From: Peptoniphilus lacydonensis
GTDB lineage: Bacteria; Bacillota; Clostridia; Tissierellales; Peptoniphilaceae
Direction: 5' to 3'
DNA length: 64,000 bases
Assembly: GCF_900106515.1 (NCBI RefSeq)
Contig: NZ_FNWF01000003.1
Span: forward strand, 620,001-684,000
The notes under the pieces were generated by a model, which saw only the letters and a list, made by a program, of their open reading frames with translations, was not told the DNA's origin and searched no databases. The position numbers and the translations under genes were made by a program. Below, piece by piece: positions 27,391 to 64,000 of this stretch; position 1 is the stretch's first letter; each line of letters opens with the position of its first letter.

Positions 27391-27419
27391 TTGACAACTT
27401 TACTAAATAATTGTATAAT
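27391..27419 (+). promoter_or_regulatory. Consensus promoter of the aspartate-to-threonine operon
   Basis: Perfect -35 TTGACA (27391-27396), 17-base spacer, perfect -10 TATAAT (27414-27419). The leader to lysC is about 64 bases and shows no lysine riboswitch or T-box. Confidence 0.85.
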
Positions 27420-27489
27420 CTTAAAAATTACTTTTAATTTTTATTGTTTATTTTTAGGCATCTTATATTTACTTAAAAAGGAGAAAAAG

Positions 27490-28812
27490 ATGAAAGTCGT
27501 AAAATTTGGTGGCAGTTCTCTCGCTAATGCCACTCAGCTTAAAAAAGTTAAGAAAATTGTAAAAAAAGACGATGCGAGAAAATACATCGTTGTTTCTGCG
27601 CCTGGAAAGGGTGTGGGAAACAATCACAAGGTTACTGACCTTCTAGCAATGTGTCACGAATTAAGTGCCCATGCTTTAAATTTTAACGAAGTTTACAAGA
27701 TCATCGAAGATATTTTTAAAAATATTGTTGATGATCTTGTTTTGGATATTGACATTGATAAAATTTTAAAAGATGTTAAAGATGAAATCACAGAAGGTGC
27801 AAGCTACGACTTTGTTGTCAGCCGTGGTGAATACATGAGTGCCAAAGTCCTTGCCAATTATCTTGGATATGATTTTGTTGACGCAAAGGACTTAATTGTC
27901 TTTACTGAGGGTGTTTTGAACCTTGATAAGTCAACAGAAAAAATAAAAAATATTTTAAATTCTCACGAAAGAGTTGTTGTTCCTGGTTTTTATGGACTTG
28001 ATGAAAATAATAAAATTAAAACTTTTTCAAGAGGCGGATCAGATGTCACTGGTTCTGTTATTGCTTCTGCTCTTTATGCAGAAATTTATGAAAACTTCAC
28101 TGATGTAAGTGGATTTTTGGTGGCAGACCCAAAAATTGTAAAAGACTCCTCCCCTATTGGCACAATTACTTATAAAGAACTTAGAGAATTGTCTTATATG
28201 GGTGCAAAAGTTCTTCATGAAGATGCAATTTTTCCTCTTCGTGACAAAAATATTCCCATTAATATTAAAAATACAAATTTCCCCGATGATGACGGGACTT
28301 TAATTTTATCTAAATGTAATTTTAGAAATAAAAATATTGTAACTGGAATTTCTGGCAAAAAAGATTTTACTGTAATTAATCTTGAAAAAGTCAATATGAA
28401 CTCTGAAAAAGATTTTTTTAGAAAGCTAACTACTGTTTTTGAAAGCAATGACATTTCTATTGAACATATGCCCTCAAGTATTGATTCTGTTTCTGTAATT
28501 GTCGCTGATTCTTACATTACTCCAAAATTAAACAAAGTTTTGGAAGAATTAAAAATTTATTTAAATGTGGATAGTATTAGTTGGGAACGTGATATTTCTC
28601 TCATTGCTGTTGTCGGTCGTGGCATGATAAATGAAAAAGGTGTTTCTGCTAGAATTTTTACTGTCCTTGCAAAGTATGGCATAAATATAAAAATGATAAG
28701 TCAAGGTTCTAGTGAAATTAATATAATCATTGGTGTTGAAACAAAAGATTTTGAAAAGGCAATCGAAGCAATCTATCGTGAATTTTATAAGGAGGAAAAA
28801 GATGAAATATAA
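27490..28812 (+). CDS. lysC: Aspartate kinase with C-terminal ACT domains
   Basis: 440 residues. Catalytic domain with KFGGSSL at the N-terminus, VVSAPGKG, SRGEYMSAK and SRGGSDVTG; then two ACT units (about residues 300-440), the second with VVGRGMINEKGVSARIF and KYGINIKMISQGSSEINI. It makes aspartyl phosphate, the first step toward lysine, threonine and methionine. ACT domains make feedback control by threonine or lysine likely. Start 27490 follows AAGGAG. First gene of lysC-asd-hom-thrC::thrB; its end overlaps asd by 11 bases. Confidence 0.95.
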   Translation: MKVVKFGGSSLANATQLKKVKKIVKKDDARKYIVVSAPGKGVGNNHKVTDLLAMCHELSAHALNFNEVYKIIEDIFKNIVDDLVLDIDIDKILKDVKDEITEGASYDFVVSRGEYMSAKVLANYLGYDFVDAKDLIVFTEGVLNLDKSTEKIKNILNSHERVVVPGFYGLDENNKIKTFSRGGSDVTGSVIASALYAEIYENFTDVSGFLVADPKIVKDSSPIGTITYKELRELSYMGAKVLHEDAIFPLRDKNIPINIKNTNFPDDDGTLILSKCNFRNKNIVTGISGKKDFTVINLEKVNMNSEKDFFRKLTTVFESNDISIEHMPSSIDSVSVIVADSYITPKLNKVLEELKIYLNVDSISWERDISLIAVVGRGMINEKGVSARIFTVLAKYGINIKMISQGSSEINIIIGVETKDFEKAIEAIYREFYKEEKDEI

Positions 28813-29779
28813 TGTAGCTGTTATTGGTGCAACTGGTCTTGTTGGAAGTATGATGTTAAAAGTATTAAGTGAGAAAAATTTTCCAATAGACAATTTATTT
28901 TTGTTTAGTTCCAAAAAATCTGCTGGTAAAATTATAAATTACTGTGGCAAGGATTACACTGTCGAAGAGTTAAAAGAAGATTCTTTTGAATATAGAGATA
29001 TAAAAGTTGCCTTATTTTCTGCTGGTGGATCTGTTAGTAAAAGATTTGCACCAATAGCTGCCAAAGCTGGGGTAACTGTTATTGACAATAGTTCTGCTTT
29101 TAGAATGGCCCCGCAAGTTCCCCTAGTTGTTCCAGAAATTAATCCAGAAGATATTCTTTATAATAATGGAATTATTGCAAACCCAAATTGTTCTACAATT
29201 CAATCAGTTTTACCTCTAAAACCAATTCACGACAAATACAAAATTAAAAGAGTCATTTATTCCACTTACCAATCCGTTTCTGGCTCTGGGATAAAAGGTA
29301 TTTCTGACTTAAATGAAGGAACTAATCTTGCCTACAAATATCCAATTAAAAATAATTGCATCCCTCAAATCGACGACTTTCTAGAAAATGGATACACTAA
29401 AGAGGAAATGAAGATGATAAATGAAACTAAGAAAATTCTTCACGATGACTCTCTACTTGTGACAGCGACAACTGTTCGTGTTCCTGTTTTGAATTCTCAC
29501 AGCATTTCCATAAATGTAGAAGTTGAAAAGCCTTTTGAAATTTCTGATGTTAAAGAAATTATAAAAAATTATCCTGGAATGATTTTGAAAGATGACCCAA
29601 CTAATCAAATTTATCCAATGCCACTTCTTTCAAAGGACACAGATGATGTCTATGTGGGAAGAATAAGGCGAGACTTTACTGTCGAAAACGGAATAAACTT
29701 GTGGTCTTGTGCAGATAATATTAGAAAAGGTGCTGCAACTAATGCAGTGCAAATTGCAAAGAAACTTTTGGAGGTTTAA
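28802..29779 (+). CDS. asd: Aspartate-semialdehyde dehydrogenase
   Basis: 325 residues. Nucleotide-binding GATGLVGSMML at the N-terminus, catalytic cysteine in NPNCSTIQ around residue 130, and SYQSVSGSG-like YQSVSGSGIKG after it. Reduces aspartyl phosphate to the semialdehyde. Start 28802 follows AAGGAGG and lies inside the 3' end of lysC (11-base overlap), so translation is coupled. Confidence 0.96.
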   Translation: MKYNVAVIGATGLVGSMMLKVLSEKNFPIDNLFLFSSKKSAGKIINYCGKDYTVEELKEDSFEYRDIKVALFSAGGSVSKRFAPIAAKAGVTVIDNSSAFRMAPQVPLVVPEINPEDILYNNGIIANPNCSTIQSVLPLKPIHDKYKIKRVIYSTYQSVSGSGIKGISDLNEGTNLAYKYPIKNNCIPQIDDFLENGYTKEEMKMINETKKILHDDSLLVTATTVRVPVLNSHSISINVEVEKPFEISDVKEIIKNYPGMILKDDPTNQIYPMPLLSKDTDDVYVGRIRRDFTVENGINLWSCADNIRKGAATNAVQIAKKLLEV

Positions 29780-29780
29780 A

Positions 29781-30962
29781 TTGAAAATTGCACTAATGGG
29801 ATTTGGAACTGTCGGCACAGGTGTCGAAGAAATTTTATATAAAAAAAAAGATAACCTTTTAAAAAATAATTTTGATATAAAAATTGAAAAAGTTTTAATT
29901 AAAAATGTAAATAAAAAAAGAAATCCTTGGAATAAAGATCTAATTTTTACAGATAATTTTGATGAAATCTTAAATTCTGACGTTGACGCAGTCATTGACG
30001 CCACATCTTCTGTTGATGAAACTTATAATAGGATTATATCTCTTATGAAATCTGGCAAAAATATTATAACAGCAAATAAGGCTGTGGTTTCAAAACATTT
30101 TGAAGAATTAAATGAACTTGCTAAAGAAAATGATATTTATTTTTCTTATGAGGCTTCTGTTGCTGCTGCTATACCTATTATTCATCCTATTACGGAAGAA
30201 CTTCCCTTTAACAAAATAAAAGAAATTTGTGGGATTTTAAATGGCACATCTAATTATATCTTGTCAAAAATGGAAAAAGAAAATTTAGATTATAAGGAAG
30301 TTTTAAAAGAGGCACAGGCTCTCGGTTATGCTGAATCTGACCCCACTGCTGACGTGGATGGCTTGGATTCAATGAGAAAAATTAGAATACTTTCTTCTCT
30401 TTTTTACAATGCACAAATTAATGAAGAAGAGATTTTTACCTTTGGAATTTCCAATATTAAAAAATCCGATTTAGATTTCATAAAAAAAGAAGGCTATTTC
30501 ATTAGGCTAATTGCAAAATCAAAATTAATTGATGATAAAATAAATATCTTTGTAATGCCCACTCTACTAAATGATGATTTCTTTACCAAAACTTTTGACA
30601 GCACCAATGCAATAAAAGTTTTGGGAGATAATTTTGGTGAATATGAACTAAAGGGTGCTGGGGCTGGAAAGCTTGAAACAGCTGATGCCATTATGCGTGA
30701 CCTTTTAAGAATTCTCTCCAAAAGAGAAATCAAAACCTTTTATAATAACGAAAATAACTTTGATGTTTCAAAAAAATTTACAGGAAAATATTATATTAGA
30801 ACATCTGAAATTTCAGATATATTAAAAGATATTATCGCAAAAGATAATCTAATAGAAAAAGATCATCATATAATTACAAAAGAAGTTTCTCTTTTTCAAA
30901 TAAGTGAAATTGTAAAAAACTATACAGAAGAAATTTTTATTGCAAGGGTGGAAGAAATATGA
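29781..30962 (+). CDS. hom: Homoserine dehydrogenase
   Basis: 393 residues. Rossmann loop GFGTVGTGVEEIL, ITANKAVVSKH, and the substrate motif GILNGTSNYILSKM followed by GYAESDPTADVDGLD are all diagnostic. Starts with TTG at 29781 behind a perfect GGAGG and one base after asd. The C-terminal part (about residues 310-393) resembles a small ACT-like tail and may give feedback control. Its stop overlaps the next gene by four bases. Confidence 0.95.
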   Translation: MKIALMGFGTVGTGVEEILYKKKDNLLKNNFDIKIEKVLIKNVNKKRNPWNKDLIFTDNFDEILNSDVDAVIDATSSVDETYNRIISLMKSGKNIITANKAVVSKHFEELNELAKENDIYFSYEASVAAAIPIIHPITEELPFNKIKEICGILNGTSNYILSKMEKENLDYKEVLKEAQALGYAESDPTADVDGLDSMRKIRILSSLFYNAQINEEEIFTFGISNIKKSDLDFIKKEGYFIRLIAKSKLIDDKINIFVMPTLLNDDFFTKTFDSTNAIKVLGDNFGEYELKGAGAGKLETADAIMRDLLRILSKREIKTFYNNENNFDVSKKFTGKYYIRTSEISDILKDIIAKDNLIEKDHHIITKEVSLFQISEIVKNYTEEIFIARVEEI

Positions 30963-33253
30963 AATTTTTATCTACAAGGAATTCAAATTTAAAAATCTCT
31001 GGACTCGAGGCAATTGTAAAGGGCATCTCTGATGATGGCGGTCTTTTTGTTCCTGAATCTTTTCCAAGTTTTAACATAATTAAAAATCTAGATTTAAGTT
31101 ACACAGATTTAGCCCACAAAATCTTATCACTTTACCTTACAGACTTTGATAAGGATGATTTGAAAAAAATAATTGAAAAATCCTATGATAGTTTTGAAGA
31201 TGAGATTGCAAAAATAGATTACAATAAAAACATTTATCTTGAACTTTATCATGGAAAGACTTCTGCCTTTAAAGACTTTGCCCTTTGTCTTTTGCCCAAT
31301 CTTTTATCCTATGCCAAAAAATCCCTTGGCATAAAAGAAAAAACTTTGATTTTAACGGCAACATCTGGAGATACAGGTAAAGCTGCCCTAGAGGGTTTTT
31401 ACAACATAGATAATATTGACATTTTAGTTTTATATCCAACAGAAGGTGTAAGTTCCATTCAAAAATCTCAAATGGACACAACAGACTCTCTAAACTCAAA
31501 AGTCATCTCTATCGACGGCAATTTTGATGATGCACAATCTGCTGTGAAAAAAATCTTTAATGACAAAAAAATAAAAGATGAACTGGCAAGAAAAAATATT
31601 TATCTTTCTTCTGCAAACTCAATAAATATTGGAAGACTGCTACCTCAAATTGTATATTATTTTTATGCCTACGCTGATTTAATCAAAAACAAAAAAATAA
31701 ATACAGGTGAAAAAATAAATTTTTGCGTACCAACTGGAAACTTTGGCGATATATTGGCCGGATACTACGCAAAAGAGATGGGTCTTCCAATTGACAAACT
31801 TGTAATAGCATCAAATTCAAATAATATTTTGACAGATTTTTTCACAACAGGCACCTACGATGCAAATAGAGAACTTAAGAAAACTATTTCTCCATCCATG
31901 GATATTTTGATTTCTAGCAACTTGGAAAGATTAATTTATCACAAATCTTCTGATGTAATTGTTAAAGAAAAAATGAACGAACTACAAAATTCTCATGCCT
32001 TTAATTTTGATTATGATTTCTCTGATTTTTTACGTGGCTTTGCAACAGAAGATGAAACAAAAAATACAATTGCCAAAACTTTTAAGGAAGATGGATACCT
32101 CATTGACCCACACACAGCTGTGGCGAAAAATATTGTGGATAAATTAGATTTAAAAAACACTGTTATACTTTCAACTGCAAGTCCATATAAATTTTCATCA
32201 TCAGTTTTATCTGCCCTTAACGAAAATATTTCTTACAATGAATTTGAAAATATAAAAACTTTAAATAAAATTACAAATGTAAAAATTCCAACAGAAATTG
32301 GGAAACTAAAAAATAAAAAAACAATTCACAACAATAAAATAAATAAAAGTGAGATAGAAAACGAAGTTTTAAAATTTGCAAGAAGGGGCAATAGAATAGC
32401 TGTACCTGCAACTTCTGCAAACTTGGGCCCAGGCTTTGACACTTTAGGACTTTCACTAAAACTTTATAATAAATGTGAATTTAAAATAATAGCAGATGAG
32501 AAAACATTTGAAAAAAATATTAAAAATAATTTAATTTATAAATCCTATGCACATACCTTTGAATATTTTGGCGAAAAAATAACACCAGTAGAATTTAATT
32601 TAGATTCTAATATTCCAATGTCAAGAGGTCTTGGTTCTTCTGCTTCTTGTGTAGTAATGGGAGTTATGGCTGCTTTCTATGTAATGGGTGAAAATCTTGA
32701 TAAATATGAAATCTTAAAAATTGCAACAGAAATAGAAGGTCACCCCGACAATGTTTCACCTGCTATTTTTGGAGGTGCAACTGTATCAATACTAAAAAAT
32801 AATGAAGTCTTTGTAGAAAAATTTAAAATTTCTGACAAAATAAAATTTTTGGCACTTATCCCAAATTTTAAACTTAAAACAGATTTAGCAAGAGGTGTTC
32901 TTCCAAAAAATTATTCAAAAAAAGATGCAATATTTAATATATCAAGAGTTTCCCTTTTGACTTTATCTCTTATATCAGGCAATTATAAAAATTTAGAGAT
33001 TGCTTTCGAAGATAAAATTCACGAGCCTTACAGATATAAACTTATTCCTGAGATAAATGAAATTAAAAAAATAATAGATGAAAGTTCTGCTATAACTTAT
33101 TACCTAAGTGGTGCAGGCTCAACTATTATGATTATTCTAAAAGAAGATGACCACAAATCGGAAAAATTCATTGAAGAAAAAATAAAAAATCTAAAAAATG
33201 ACTACACTTTACTTCCCTTAGAAATAGATGACAATGGTGCTTTTATAATTTAA
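30959..33253 (+). CDS. Threonine synthase / homoserine kinase fusion protein (ThrC::ThrB)
   Basis: 764 residues, one uninterrupted frame. Residues 1 to about 455 are threonine synthase: MKFLSTRNS, then SDDGGLFVPE, the PLP-lysine in GKTSAFKDFAL, LTATSGDTGKAA and CVPTGNFGDILAGYYAKEM. A Lys/Asn-rich linker (about 440-470) leads to a complete GHMP kinase of about 290 residues: AVPATSANLGPGFDTLG, SRGLGSSASCV (ATP loop, near residue 555), GHPDNVSPAIFGG and LSGAGSTIMI. It should phosphorylate homoserine and convert the product to threonine in one polypeptide. In most bacteria thrB and thrC are separate genes; here the order is synthase first. Overlaps hom by four bases (ATGA). Confidence 0.93.
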   Translation: MKFLSTRNSNLKISGLEAIVKGISDDGGLFVPESFPSFNIIKNLDLSYTDLAHKILSLYLTDFDKDDLKKIIEKSYDSFEDEIAKIDYNKNIYLELYHGKTSAFKDFALCLLPNLLSYAKKSLGIKEKTLILTATSGDTGKAALEGFYNIDNIDILVLYPTEGVSSIQKSQMDTTDSLNSKVISIDGNFDDAQSAVKKIFNDKKIKDELARKNIYLSSANSINIGRLLPQIVYYFYAYADLIKNKKINTGEKINFCVPTGNFGDILAGYYAKEMGLPIDKLVIASNSNNILTDFFTTGTYDANRELKKTISPSMDILISSNLERLIYHKSSDVIVKEKMNELQNSHAFNFDYDFSDFLRGFATEDETKNTIAKTFKEDGYLIDPHTAVAKNIVDKLDLKNTVILSTASPYKFSSSVLSALNENISYNEFENIKTLNKITNVKIPTEIGKLKNKKTIHNNKINKSEIENEVLKFARRGNRIAVPATSANLGPGFDTLGLSLKLYNKCEFKIIADEKTFEKNIKNNLIYKSYAHTFEYFGEKITPVEFNLDSNIPMSRGLGSSASCVVMGVMAAFYVMGENLDKYEILKIATEIEGHPDNVSPAIFGGATVSILKNNEVFVEKFKISDKIKFLALIPNFKLKTDLARGVLPKNYSKKDAIFNISRVSLLTLSLISGNYKNLEIAFEDKIHEPYRYKLIPEINEIKKIIDESSAITYYLSGAGSTIMIILKEDDHKSEKFIEEKIKNLKNDYTLLPLEIDDNGAFII

Positions 33254-62441: not shown

Positions 62442-64000
62442 TTAATCTTTTATAATTGTTCCACTATTTTCTGGTTCATTTGTATTTAAAATCTTTATAG
62501 TTATATTCTTTTTCTTCACAGGATTAATTGCATCTCCTTGATAGACCTCAGCACCCTTTTCTATAATCTCTTTTAACTCACTATAATTTAATTTGTCAAT
62601 TGTCTTGGCATGGGGATCACTTTTTGGATCTGATGTCATTATTCCATTTACATCAGTCCAATTTTCATATACTTTGCTGTCAAGTGCATAAGCAATTAAA
62701 CTTCCCGTATAGTCACTACCCCCTCTTGTAAAAGTAACTATATCTCCATTTGTATTTCTTCCATAAAACCCTGGAACAACTGCTTTTTTATTTTCTCCAA
62801 TTTTACTTTTTATAGCATCTGTAGACTTCTCTAAGTTTACTTTCCCATTTACATCAAAAATTATTAAATCCTTGGCATCTATAAAATCATATTCTAAATA
62901 TTTTGCTAGAATTTTTGCATTTAAAAATTCTCCCCTACTTACTATAAAATCCTTATCTGTGGAATTTTCAATTTCATCAAAGACATATTTTAGTTCTTCA
63001 TCCCAAAAGCCTTCAAGTCTTAAATCTTTTGCTATTGAAAAAAATCTACTTCTTATCTTTTCCAGTTGAGTATCTCTATATACTTTTTGAAGCTCTAAAT
63101 TTTCTTCCAAAGATTTTATTATTTGATTTAACTCTTCTATTTTATTATTCTTTTGAGATAAACCTATTAGTTCATCTGTTACTTTTGTATCCTCGCTAAA
63201 TCTTCTCCCAGGTGCAGAAACAACTATTACATCTCTATCATTCTTAGAAAAAATAATTTTTTTAACTTTTGCAAATTGTCCTGCATCTTTTAGAGAACTT
63301 CCTCCAAACTTTGACACAGATTTACCTTTAATAGTTTCAATAGCAAAAGGTGTTTCTTGATAAACGCAATAGTTTAGCCAATTTGAGAAAAATAAATTTC
63401 CCGAGGATCTCCACTTCATCTTAATATCTTTATTCGGATCGTTGTCTTTATAATAATTAAGCGGAATATTTATTTTTTTAGACTTAGCTAAATCTCTAAT
63501 ATATTCATTATGAAGAGTTTCTCTATCATATTCCCAATGACCAAAGTTAAAAATAAATCTATGATCCTTCGTTGTTGCAAGAGAAACCCCAGTGTCACTT
63601 CTTGCAGCAAGAACTTCAAGATCAGAGATGTCTTCTAAATCTTTTTCATCTACATAGGTATGCCTTGACGTTGGAATCAAAAAAGTATCATCAAACCCCT
63701 TTATTATTTTATTATCCTTCAATTTATCAAACTCAAAAACTCCAAATATTTTTTCATCTGCAACTTTGTGTTCAATATCATAATAATATCGAAGAGCTGC
63801 CTGTGCAGACCAACATATAAACATTGTAGAAAACACATTTTCCTTTGCAAACTCAAAAATTGTCTTTAATTCTTCCCAATACTTTATCTTTTCGTAGGCA
63901 ACAAGTTCAATCGGTGCACCAGTAATTATCATAGCATCGTATTTATTGTCTTTAATATCATCATAGGTTTTATAAAAAGCCTTTAATCTTTTTAAATCAC
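62442..64000 (-). CDS. Homoserine O-acyltransferase / aspartokinase fusion (MetA::AK), 5' end outside window
   Basis: 519 codons visible; the frame is open through the right edge, so the N-terminus is missing. The first about 225 visible residues are MetA: TGAPIEL, the catalytic Cys in FICWSAQAAL, the His in FNFGHWEYD, and KMKWRSSGNLFFSNWLNYCVYQETPF. In characterised MetA enzymes Glu after TGAPI (as here) goes with acetyl-CoA rather than succinyl-CoA. After a short linker IETIKGK a complete aspartokinase catalytic domain starts (KFGGSSLKDAG, VVSAPGRR, SRGEFLNAK, TRGGSDYTG) and stops at ENSGTIIKD, with no ACT domains, unlike LysC at 27490-28812. Methionine branch enzyme joined to the pathway's first enzyme. 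Confidence 0.9.
   Translation of the reverse strand, partial: DLKRLKAFYKTYDDIKDNKYDAMIITGAPIELVAYEKIKYWEELKTIFEFAKENVFSTMFICWSAQAALRYYYDIEHKVADEKIFGVFEFDKLKDNKIIKGFDDTFLIPTSRHTYVDEKDLEDISDLEVLAARSDTGVSLATTKDHRFIFNFGHWEYDRETLHNEYIRDLAKSKKINIPLNYYKDNDPNKDIKMKWRSSGNLFFSNWLNYCVYQETPFAIETIKGKSVSKFGGSSLKDAGQFAKVKKIIFSKNDRDVIVVSAPGRRFSEDTKVTDELIGLSQKNNKIEELNQIIKSLEENLELQKVYRDTQLEKIRSRFFSIAKDLRLEGFWDEELKYVFDEIENSTDKDFIVSRGEFLNAKILAKYLEYDFIDAKDLIIFDVNGKVNLEKSTDAIKSKIGENKKAVVPGFYGRNTNGDIVTFTRGGSDYTGSLIAYALDSKVYENWTDVNGIMTSDPKSDPHAKTIDKLNYSELKEIIEKGAEVYQGDAINPVKKKNITIKILNTNEPENSGTIIKD

Follow-up and report, generated by a model that had tools for sequence, protein, structure and literature searches.

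ACT domains are the usual, though not the universal, means by which aspartokinase (AK), a key target in amino-acid production, is regulated. Passages in two papers (PMC1885841, PMC555942) describe fusions of AK with homoserine dehydrogenase and with LysA, the latter, from Xanthomonadaceae and Xylella, joining the first enzyme of the pathway to an enzyme of a single branch. A reference title in PMC555942 calls AKII-HDII methionine-repressible, and a passage of PMC1885841 has duplicated, fused AKs responding to different signals. MetL (aspartokinase II-homoserine dehydrogenase II) and ThrA of E. coli are likewise AKs joined to an enzyme of the same pathway. Here we describe a gene of Peptoniphilus lacydonensis that resembles both systems and differs from each. 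The partner in MetL and ThrA is homoserine dehydrogenase and is C-terminal, whereas here it is MetA and is N-terminal, the AK lacks ACT domains and control is presumably exerted by a T-box; the partner in aspartokinase-LysA is the last enzyme of the lysine branch, whereas MetA is the first of the methionine branch. An earlier note on this DNA had called the arrangement an unusual wiring of AK. This holds in so far as no MetA-aspartokinase fusion appeared among the titles and abstract openings searched in the open-licence literature, but not for the fusion of AKs as such (described in the passages of PMC1885841 and PMC555942 cited above). Bifunctional aspartokinases are already known, and the combination of a MetA partner with an ACT-less AK is a new variant.

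The window, that is, the whole stretch of 64,000 nucleotides that was analysed, ends within the gene, whose features are as follows.

62442..64000, minus strand: metA:AK fusion gene, its 5' 238 bases lying beyond the window (full gene 62442-64238, 598 aa; L003:2442-4238)
63345..64000, minus strand: MetA (homoserine O-acyltransferase) domain, residues 81-298 of 1-298 being in the window; Pfam HTS; E111, C142, H234 and E236 conserved
62445..63326, minus strand: aspartokinase catalytic domain, residues 305-598, without ACT; Pfam AA_kinase, phmmer to 3tvi, conserved AK columns
63090..63143, minus strand: 18-residue insertion in the N-lobe helix, about residues 366-383; from alignment and TD-to-GE spacing

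The frame is open over 62442..63998 (minus strand) up to the window edge and the gene runs on in the genome to 64238, so that MetA and AK do lie in one open frame, as had been claimed from the window. HTS/MetA (PF04204) matches residues 2-298 (E 4.3e-119, 397 bits against a cut-off of 27), and all of its positions, 1-298 of 298, are covered; the MetA N-terminus to the right of 64000 is therefore complete. AA_kinase (PF00696) matches residues 308-585 (E 6.9e-36, 124.6 bits against a cut-off of 24.9) and the protein stops at residue 598, 13 residues after the end of this match. The Pfam scan of the 598 residues gave no ACT model at E ≤ 0.001, whereas the paralogous AK of the window does give ACT, which bears out the description of the AK half as lacking it. 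The fusion stop lies 88 bp from the end of a tail-to-tail GAPDH gene; there is therefore no space for a detached ACT domain 3' of the fusion, a candidate that we reject on this ground. A stop or frameshift between the domains near 63300 was looked for and none was seen. That two genes were joined by an error of assembly or sequencing has a negligible probability, since independently sequenced genomes have the same junction, with the same MetA/AK spacing in the other aligned ACT-less fusions.

Catalysis by MetA enzymes relies on a Cys, a His and a Glu; a further Glu, at position 111, marks the acetyl-CoA type. Residues E111, C142, H234 and E236 are invariant in 18 aligned fusions, in agreement with the earlier note, which had found the active-site Cys and His present; the acyl donor would accordingly be acetyl-CoA. 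The best profile matches of the MetA half are homoserine acyltransferases, the NCBIfam MetA model NF047918 giving 293.8 of 460.5 bits with only the in-window part of the fusion protein as query. In sequence and fold the MetA half resembles the MetA proteins of B. cereus (2ghr, 2vdj) and T. maritima (2h2w), which, unlike the fusion, stand alone at about 300 residues.

Taking the domains together with the leader and neighbours described below, we think it likely that the protein is a bifunctional aspartokinase/homoserine O-acetyltransferase dedicated to methionine and controlled by a Met-tRNA T-box. The C-terminal AK half would make aspartyl phosphate and, lacking ACT, should be insensitive to lysine and threonine. 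Its product would pass through Asd and Hom to homoserine, which the N-terminal MetA half would turn into O-acetylhomoserine, committed to methionine, for sulfhydrylation by MetY. The T-box leader, reading Met-tRNA, would control the gene or operon, with product inhibition of MetA possible in addition, and an ACT-bearing AK, where present, would supply the other branches, as at the head of the thr operon in the window genome.

The best sequence match of the AK half is an aspartokinase, and the motifs K310-FGGSS, S434-RGE, R505-GGSD and Y524-ENWTD are invariant in the 18 aligned fusions. With near-constant columns defined as those in which 95% or more of 48 unfused AKs agree (L046, L055, L056 and G540 not included), 39 of 49 are retained in 24 ACT-less fusions. 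Ten are altered, five of them at 554-560, where our guess is that the helix touches ACT in normal AKs; YQ in place of LH at 566-567 is fusion-specific. Such changes in and near the helix 552-567 would suit an AK half that is catalytically dead and serves MetA as scaffold or sensor, as would the further AK match in most fusion genomes, the relatives with MetA alone, and structural models in which the K310 lobe of a monomer is separated from the other parts of the AK site. We nevertheless regard a dead AK half as improbable: the retained columns include the K310, S434-E437, R505-D509 and Y524-D529 motifs, the fusion is the only AK match in genomes G021 and G079, and the AK half is under purifying selection, its dN/dS being 0.03-0.10 in seven close pairs (MetA half, 0.01-0.07 in seven close pairs). 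The best evidence for activity comes from G021, which has the order T-box-metA:AK-asd-hom, with a Hom of 310 aa, and a single AK match and a single Hom match in the genome. As the short route is complete there without another AK match, the AK half is probably active.

The ACT-less fused AKs have in common an insertion of about 18 residues that none of 52 other AKs examined contains. Counted from the TD motif to the following GE, the distance is 82-83 in 22 of the 24 ACT-less fusions and 76 in G010, whereas it does not exceed 74 in the 52 others, where 65 is typical; on re-reading, it was 80 in G021 and 81 in the window protein, and 51-63 in five unfused AKs. Among solved structures, the Clostridium acetobutylicum aspartokinase 3tvi is closest in sequence to the AK half (phmmer E 4.8e-62), although only the first 276 of its 446 residues are matched and the alignment has a gap at the insertion of the fusion. 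The short AK profile AspKin_pair of Pyrococcus (TIGR02078, 327 positions), which is not of a protein fused to MetA, matches weakly (106 bits against a cut-off of 242.4). A Candidatus Daviesbacteria MAG encodes an unfused AK-like protein of 274 aa that ends after the catalytic core (L046:4213-5037), and ACT-less AKs are therefore not limited to the fusion.

In predicted structures, the P. timonensis fusion had a mean pLDDT of 84.8 and a pTM of 0.52, the relative orientation of the halves not being fixed, and the window AK half modelled alone had a mean pLDDT of 92.8. The MetA part of the P. timonensis model superposes on 2h2w with Z 37.9 and an rmsd of 1.9 Å over 288 residues; in the AK model, the body that begins near residue 79 superposes on 3c1m (Z 22.1, 1.8 Å over 214) and 2j0w (Z 20.9, 1.5 Å over 215). 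With the N-terminal lobe included, the rmsd to 3tvi is 34-35 Å, which we read as a displaced lobe because both models make residues 353-405 one 53-residue helix, with the insertion inside it. The modelled displacement may be a domain swap or an artefact: a domain-swapped dimer would account for it, and it could be a product of the shallow alignments (38 and 32 rows). A more elaborate proposal, which we hold to be rather doubtful, is that the loss of ACT is compensated structurally, the insertion, whose length hardly varies, converting the hairpin of the N-lobe into the 53-residue helix so that the KFGGSS lobe would complete the site of the other chain in an obligate swapped dimer, with the MetA half as a module for oligomerisation and for sensing methionine or SAM. 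If true, the lineage would represent a novel structural class among aspartokinases, taking its feedback signal from a fused downstream enzyme.

The fusion is immediately preceded by a T-box match (RF00230; 64300-64531 in window coordinates), which at 90.2 bits is slightly below the gathering score of 93; those at other fusion loci score 94.9 (L011), 109.3 (L019) and 100.4 bits (L016), the last two standing ahead of metY-fusion. At the specifier the window genome has GAA-N-AUG-G, as do all 17 of the fusion loci from the contig scan described below. Strict motifs for antiterminator and specifier occur as a pair ahead of the fusion or its operon in 29 of 30 family genomes, G106 being the sole miss; in L018 (P. 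asaccharolyticus) the specifier motif is present and the antiterminator motif absent. The reading of the specifier, whose position was judged by eye, was checked on the 11 T-box matches of the window genome (L064, L068 and L074 were not used): in five others the trinucleotide fits the downstream gene, which we take from the translations to be ileS (ATC), thrS (ACT), valS (GTA), serS (TCC) and argG (AGG), the serS codon being one base nearer GAA and ileS and valS having no GAA as such. Further AUG T-boxes in this genome stand ahead of metY and of an ABC transporter ATPase. With a slightly looser pattern, the motif pair was also present at 9 of 11 stand-alone metY-metA operons examined.

Since the specifier is AUG, expression of the fusion should follow uncharged Met-tRNA, and it is probably turned on at methionine shortage. 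The suggestion that flux through the fusion is unregulated is thus not supported: besides the leader, the MetA half may be feedback-sensitive by analogy with homoserine O-acetyltransferases, for which methionine feedback is stated in a passage of PMC10464499. Control seems instead, to judge from these sequences, to have shifted from ACT allostery to the sensing of Met-tRNA. A conserved ACT-less AK lineage with an insertion of its own, a committed methionine enzyme fused to it and a Met-type T-box ahead of it offers a test case for the exchange of allosteric for transcriptional control.

The other part of that suggestion, a dedicated flux to methionine, is supported by the T-box and, in some genomes, by the neighbours. 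Of the 30 family genomes with the fusion, 12 have metY as its immediate upstream neighbour and 3 have asd immediately downstream; hom is found downstream in 2, one of them interrupted. The window itself holds a second set of pathway genes.

27391..28812, plus strand: canonical aspartokinase with ACT domains (the paralogue), first gene of AK-asd-hom-thrC:thrB; ACT_9, ACT and ACT_7 by Pfam
28802..29779, plus strand: asd, aspartate-semialdehyde dehydrogenase, the step after either AK; start codon approximate
29709..30962, plus strand: hom, homoserine dehydrogenase, making the expected MetA substrate; ORF start probably over-extended
30959-33253, plus strand: thrC:thrB, threonine synthase and homoserine kinase domains in one 764-aa frame by Pfam; a second pathway fusion in the genome

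The catalytic domains of the fused AK and the paralogue are 42% identical (BLAST). The profile search counted three AK matches in the window genome, the fusion and the paralogue being among the matches listed, and another search gave two; the majority of fusion genomes show one or more additional matches, a second was counted in G081, and G079 has a single one. The hom gene above is the only Homoserine_dh match of the window genome. Such matches occur in 29 of 32 fusion genomes; none was found in G079, G081 and G319 (90, 81 and 93% complete), though the fusion and asd are present. The operon in these three (L107, L108 and L162) is metY-metA:AK-asd.

These genomes bear on whether the fusion might be a general entry enzyme for lysine, threonine and methionine, to which MetA is attached for co-expression only. 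An AK supplies every branch, the fusion is without a second AK match in G079 and G021, and in G079, which has no Homoserine_dh match, AK and Asd may serve another branch. The Met-type T-box and the linkage to metY speak against this, as does the window genome, where a separate ACT-bearing AK heads the thr operon and a DHDPS (DapA-type) gene is also present; we consider such a general role unlikely and retain the dedicated methionine enzyme.

No match to S-methyl_trans (PF02574, MetH-type) or Meth_synt_2 (PF01717, MetE) was found in the window genome, although, as a control, matches to the profiles came up in 9 and 10 genomes out of 14. In the 30 fusion genomes, S-methyl_trans was matched in 4 and Meth_synt_2 in 15, only two of these with full MetE-like scores; neither family was matched in 11 of the 30, the window genome included. 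The last methionine step in the window genome, judged by these profiles, lacks a recognisable MetE or MetH enzyme. This could be taken to mean that the MetA half has another acyl acceptor than homoserine, such as serine, and that its product is no methionine precursor, the more so as the MetY family TIGR01326 is named for O-acetylhomoserine and cysteine synthesis alike. Against it stand the homoserine acyltransferase profiles, the conserved MetA catalytic residues and the Met-type T-box, and we rate it as very improbable beside the acetylation of homoserine. The window genome has an O-acetylhomoserine sulfhydrylase above the TIGR01326 cut-off, behind an AUG T-box, and a methionine gamma-lyase above its cut-off, so that direct use of methanethiol for methionine is possible. 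Direct sulfurylation with MetX and MetY is described in a passage of PMC10416483. Eleven genomes, that of the window among them, thus have the fusion module but no methionine synthase that could be recognised, which raises the question of whether methionine is made directly from O-acetylhomoserine and methanethiol.

The fusion is not a one-off of the window strain. A contig scan returned 55 loci, 17 of them with the whole fusion (L005-L021), from Peptoniphilus, Anaerosphaera, Urinicoccus, Kallipyga and one Bacillota MAG, and in a profile search of 130 family genomes 30, from nine genera, had the fusion at full length. Within the window's genus it is present in 13 of 14 genomes, G114 being without it, and two relatives, G038 and G012, carry broken copies; the fusion is therefore dispensable in places. 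At least 16 other genomes of the 130 have MetA alone. No fusion outside the family was found among 249 genomes of the order (E ≤ 1e-90). An even sample of 398 genomes of the phylum, which included two of the 30 family fusion genomes, added two: the distant G319, ACT-less, with metY-metA:AK-asd and the T-box motif pair, and G540, a MetA:AK fusion of 759 aa with an ACT-like tail (L161:3350-5629; tail 25.7% identical to the ACT region of the window paralogue), where the pair was not found. Two long-frame candidates from this sample were rejected: G613 is MetA only (305 aa), and G604 has a long frame ahead of MetA without an AK match. The 592-aa frame of Aedoeadaptatus L023/L130 is MetA only by Pfam and BLAST, apparently an over-extended ORF.

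Trees were calculated with 25 fusions (leaving out, of the 17 fusions of the contig scan, L007, L008, L010, L012, L013, L014 and L017, and also the broken L106 and L170). On the AK side, all 24 ACT-less fusions group in a single clade that excludes 51 unfused AKs as well as G540 (SH-aLRT 96, in a quick tree without bootstrap). The 51 comprise 28 from genomes and 23 of the 36 AK loci of the contig scan (L024, L039, L040, L042-L045, L047, L048, L052-L054 and L057 left out); ACT was checked in part of them, L046 ending after the core, L031 being cut by the contig and L154 having ACT in the next frame. The nearest neighbours of the fused clade are L036 (Levybacteria MAG) and L046, the latter long-branched, with support 93. 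In the MetA tree, made without L023/L130 and G090, grouping all 24 MetA halves was rejected (p-AU 0.022), and one origin for the entire fusion is not a simple reading. In genus g3, MetAs that stand alone are nested among the fusions, which suggests that the AK half was lost there; G319 may represent a transfer or an older fusion. G540 stands apart in both trees, on a long AK branch, and is by this placement a separate fusion.

Two further observations concern gene order. In G071 an ACT-bearing AK lies directly upstream of a stand-alone MetA, unfused (L129:3081-5362, minus strand), and the T-box motif pair was not found there with the looser pattern used for the metY-metA operons. Upstream of the fusion in the window genome are citrate lyase genes (L003:4696-11307; citF and citE by Pfam, the remainder by eye), and citrate-lyase-like ORFs, judged by their first residues, occupy the same place in several relatives.
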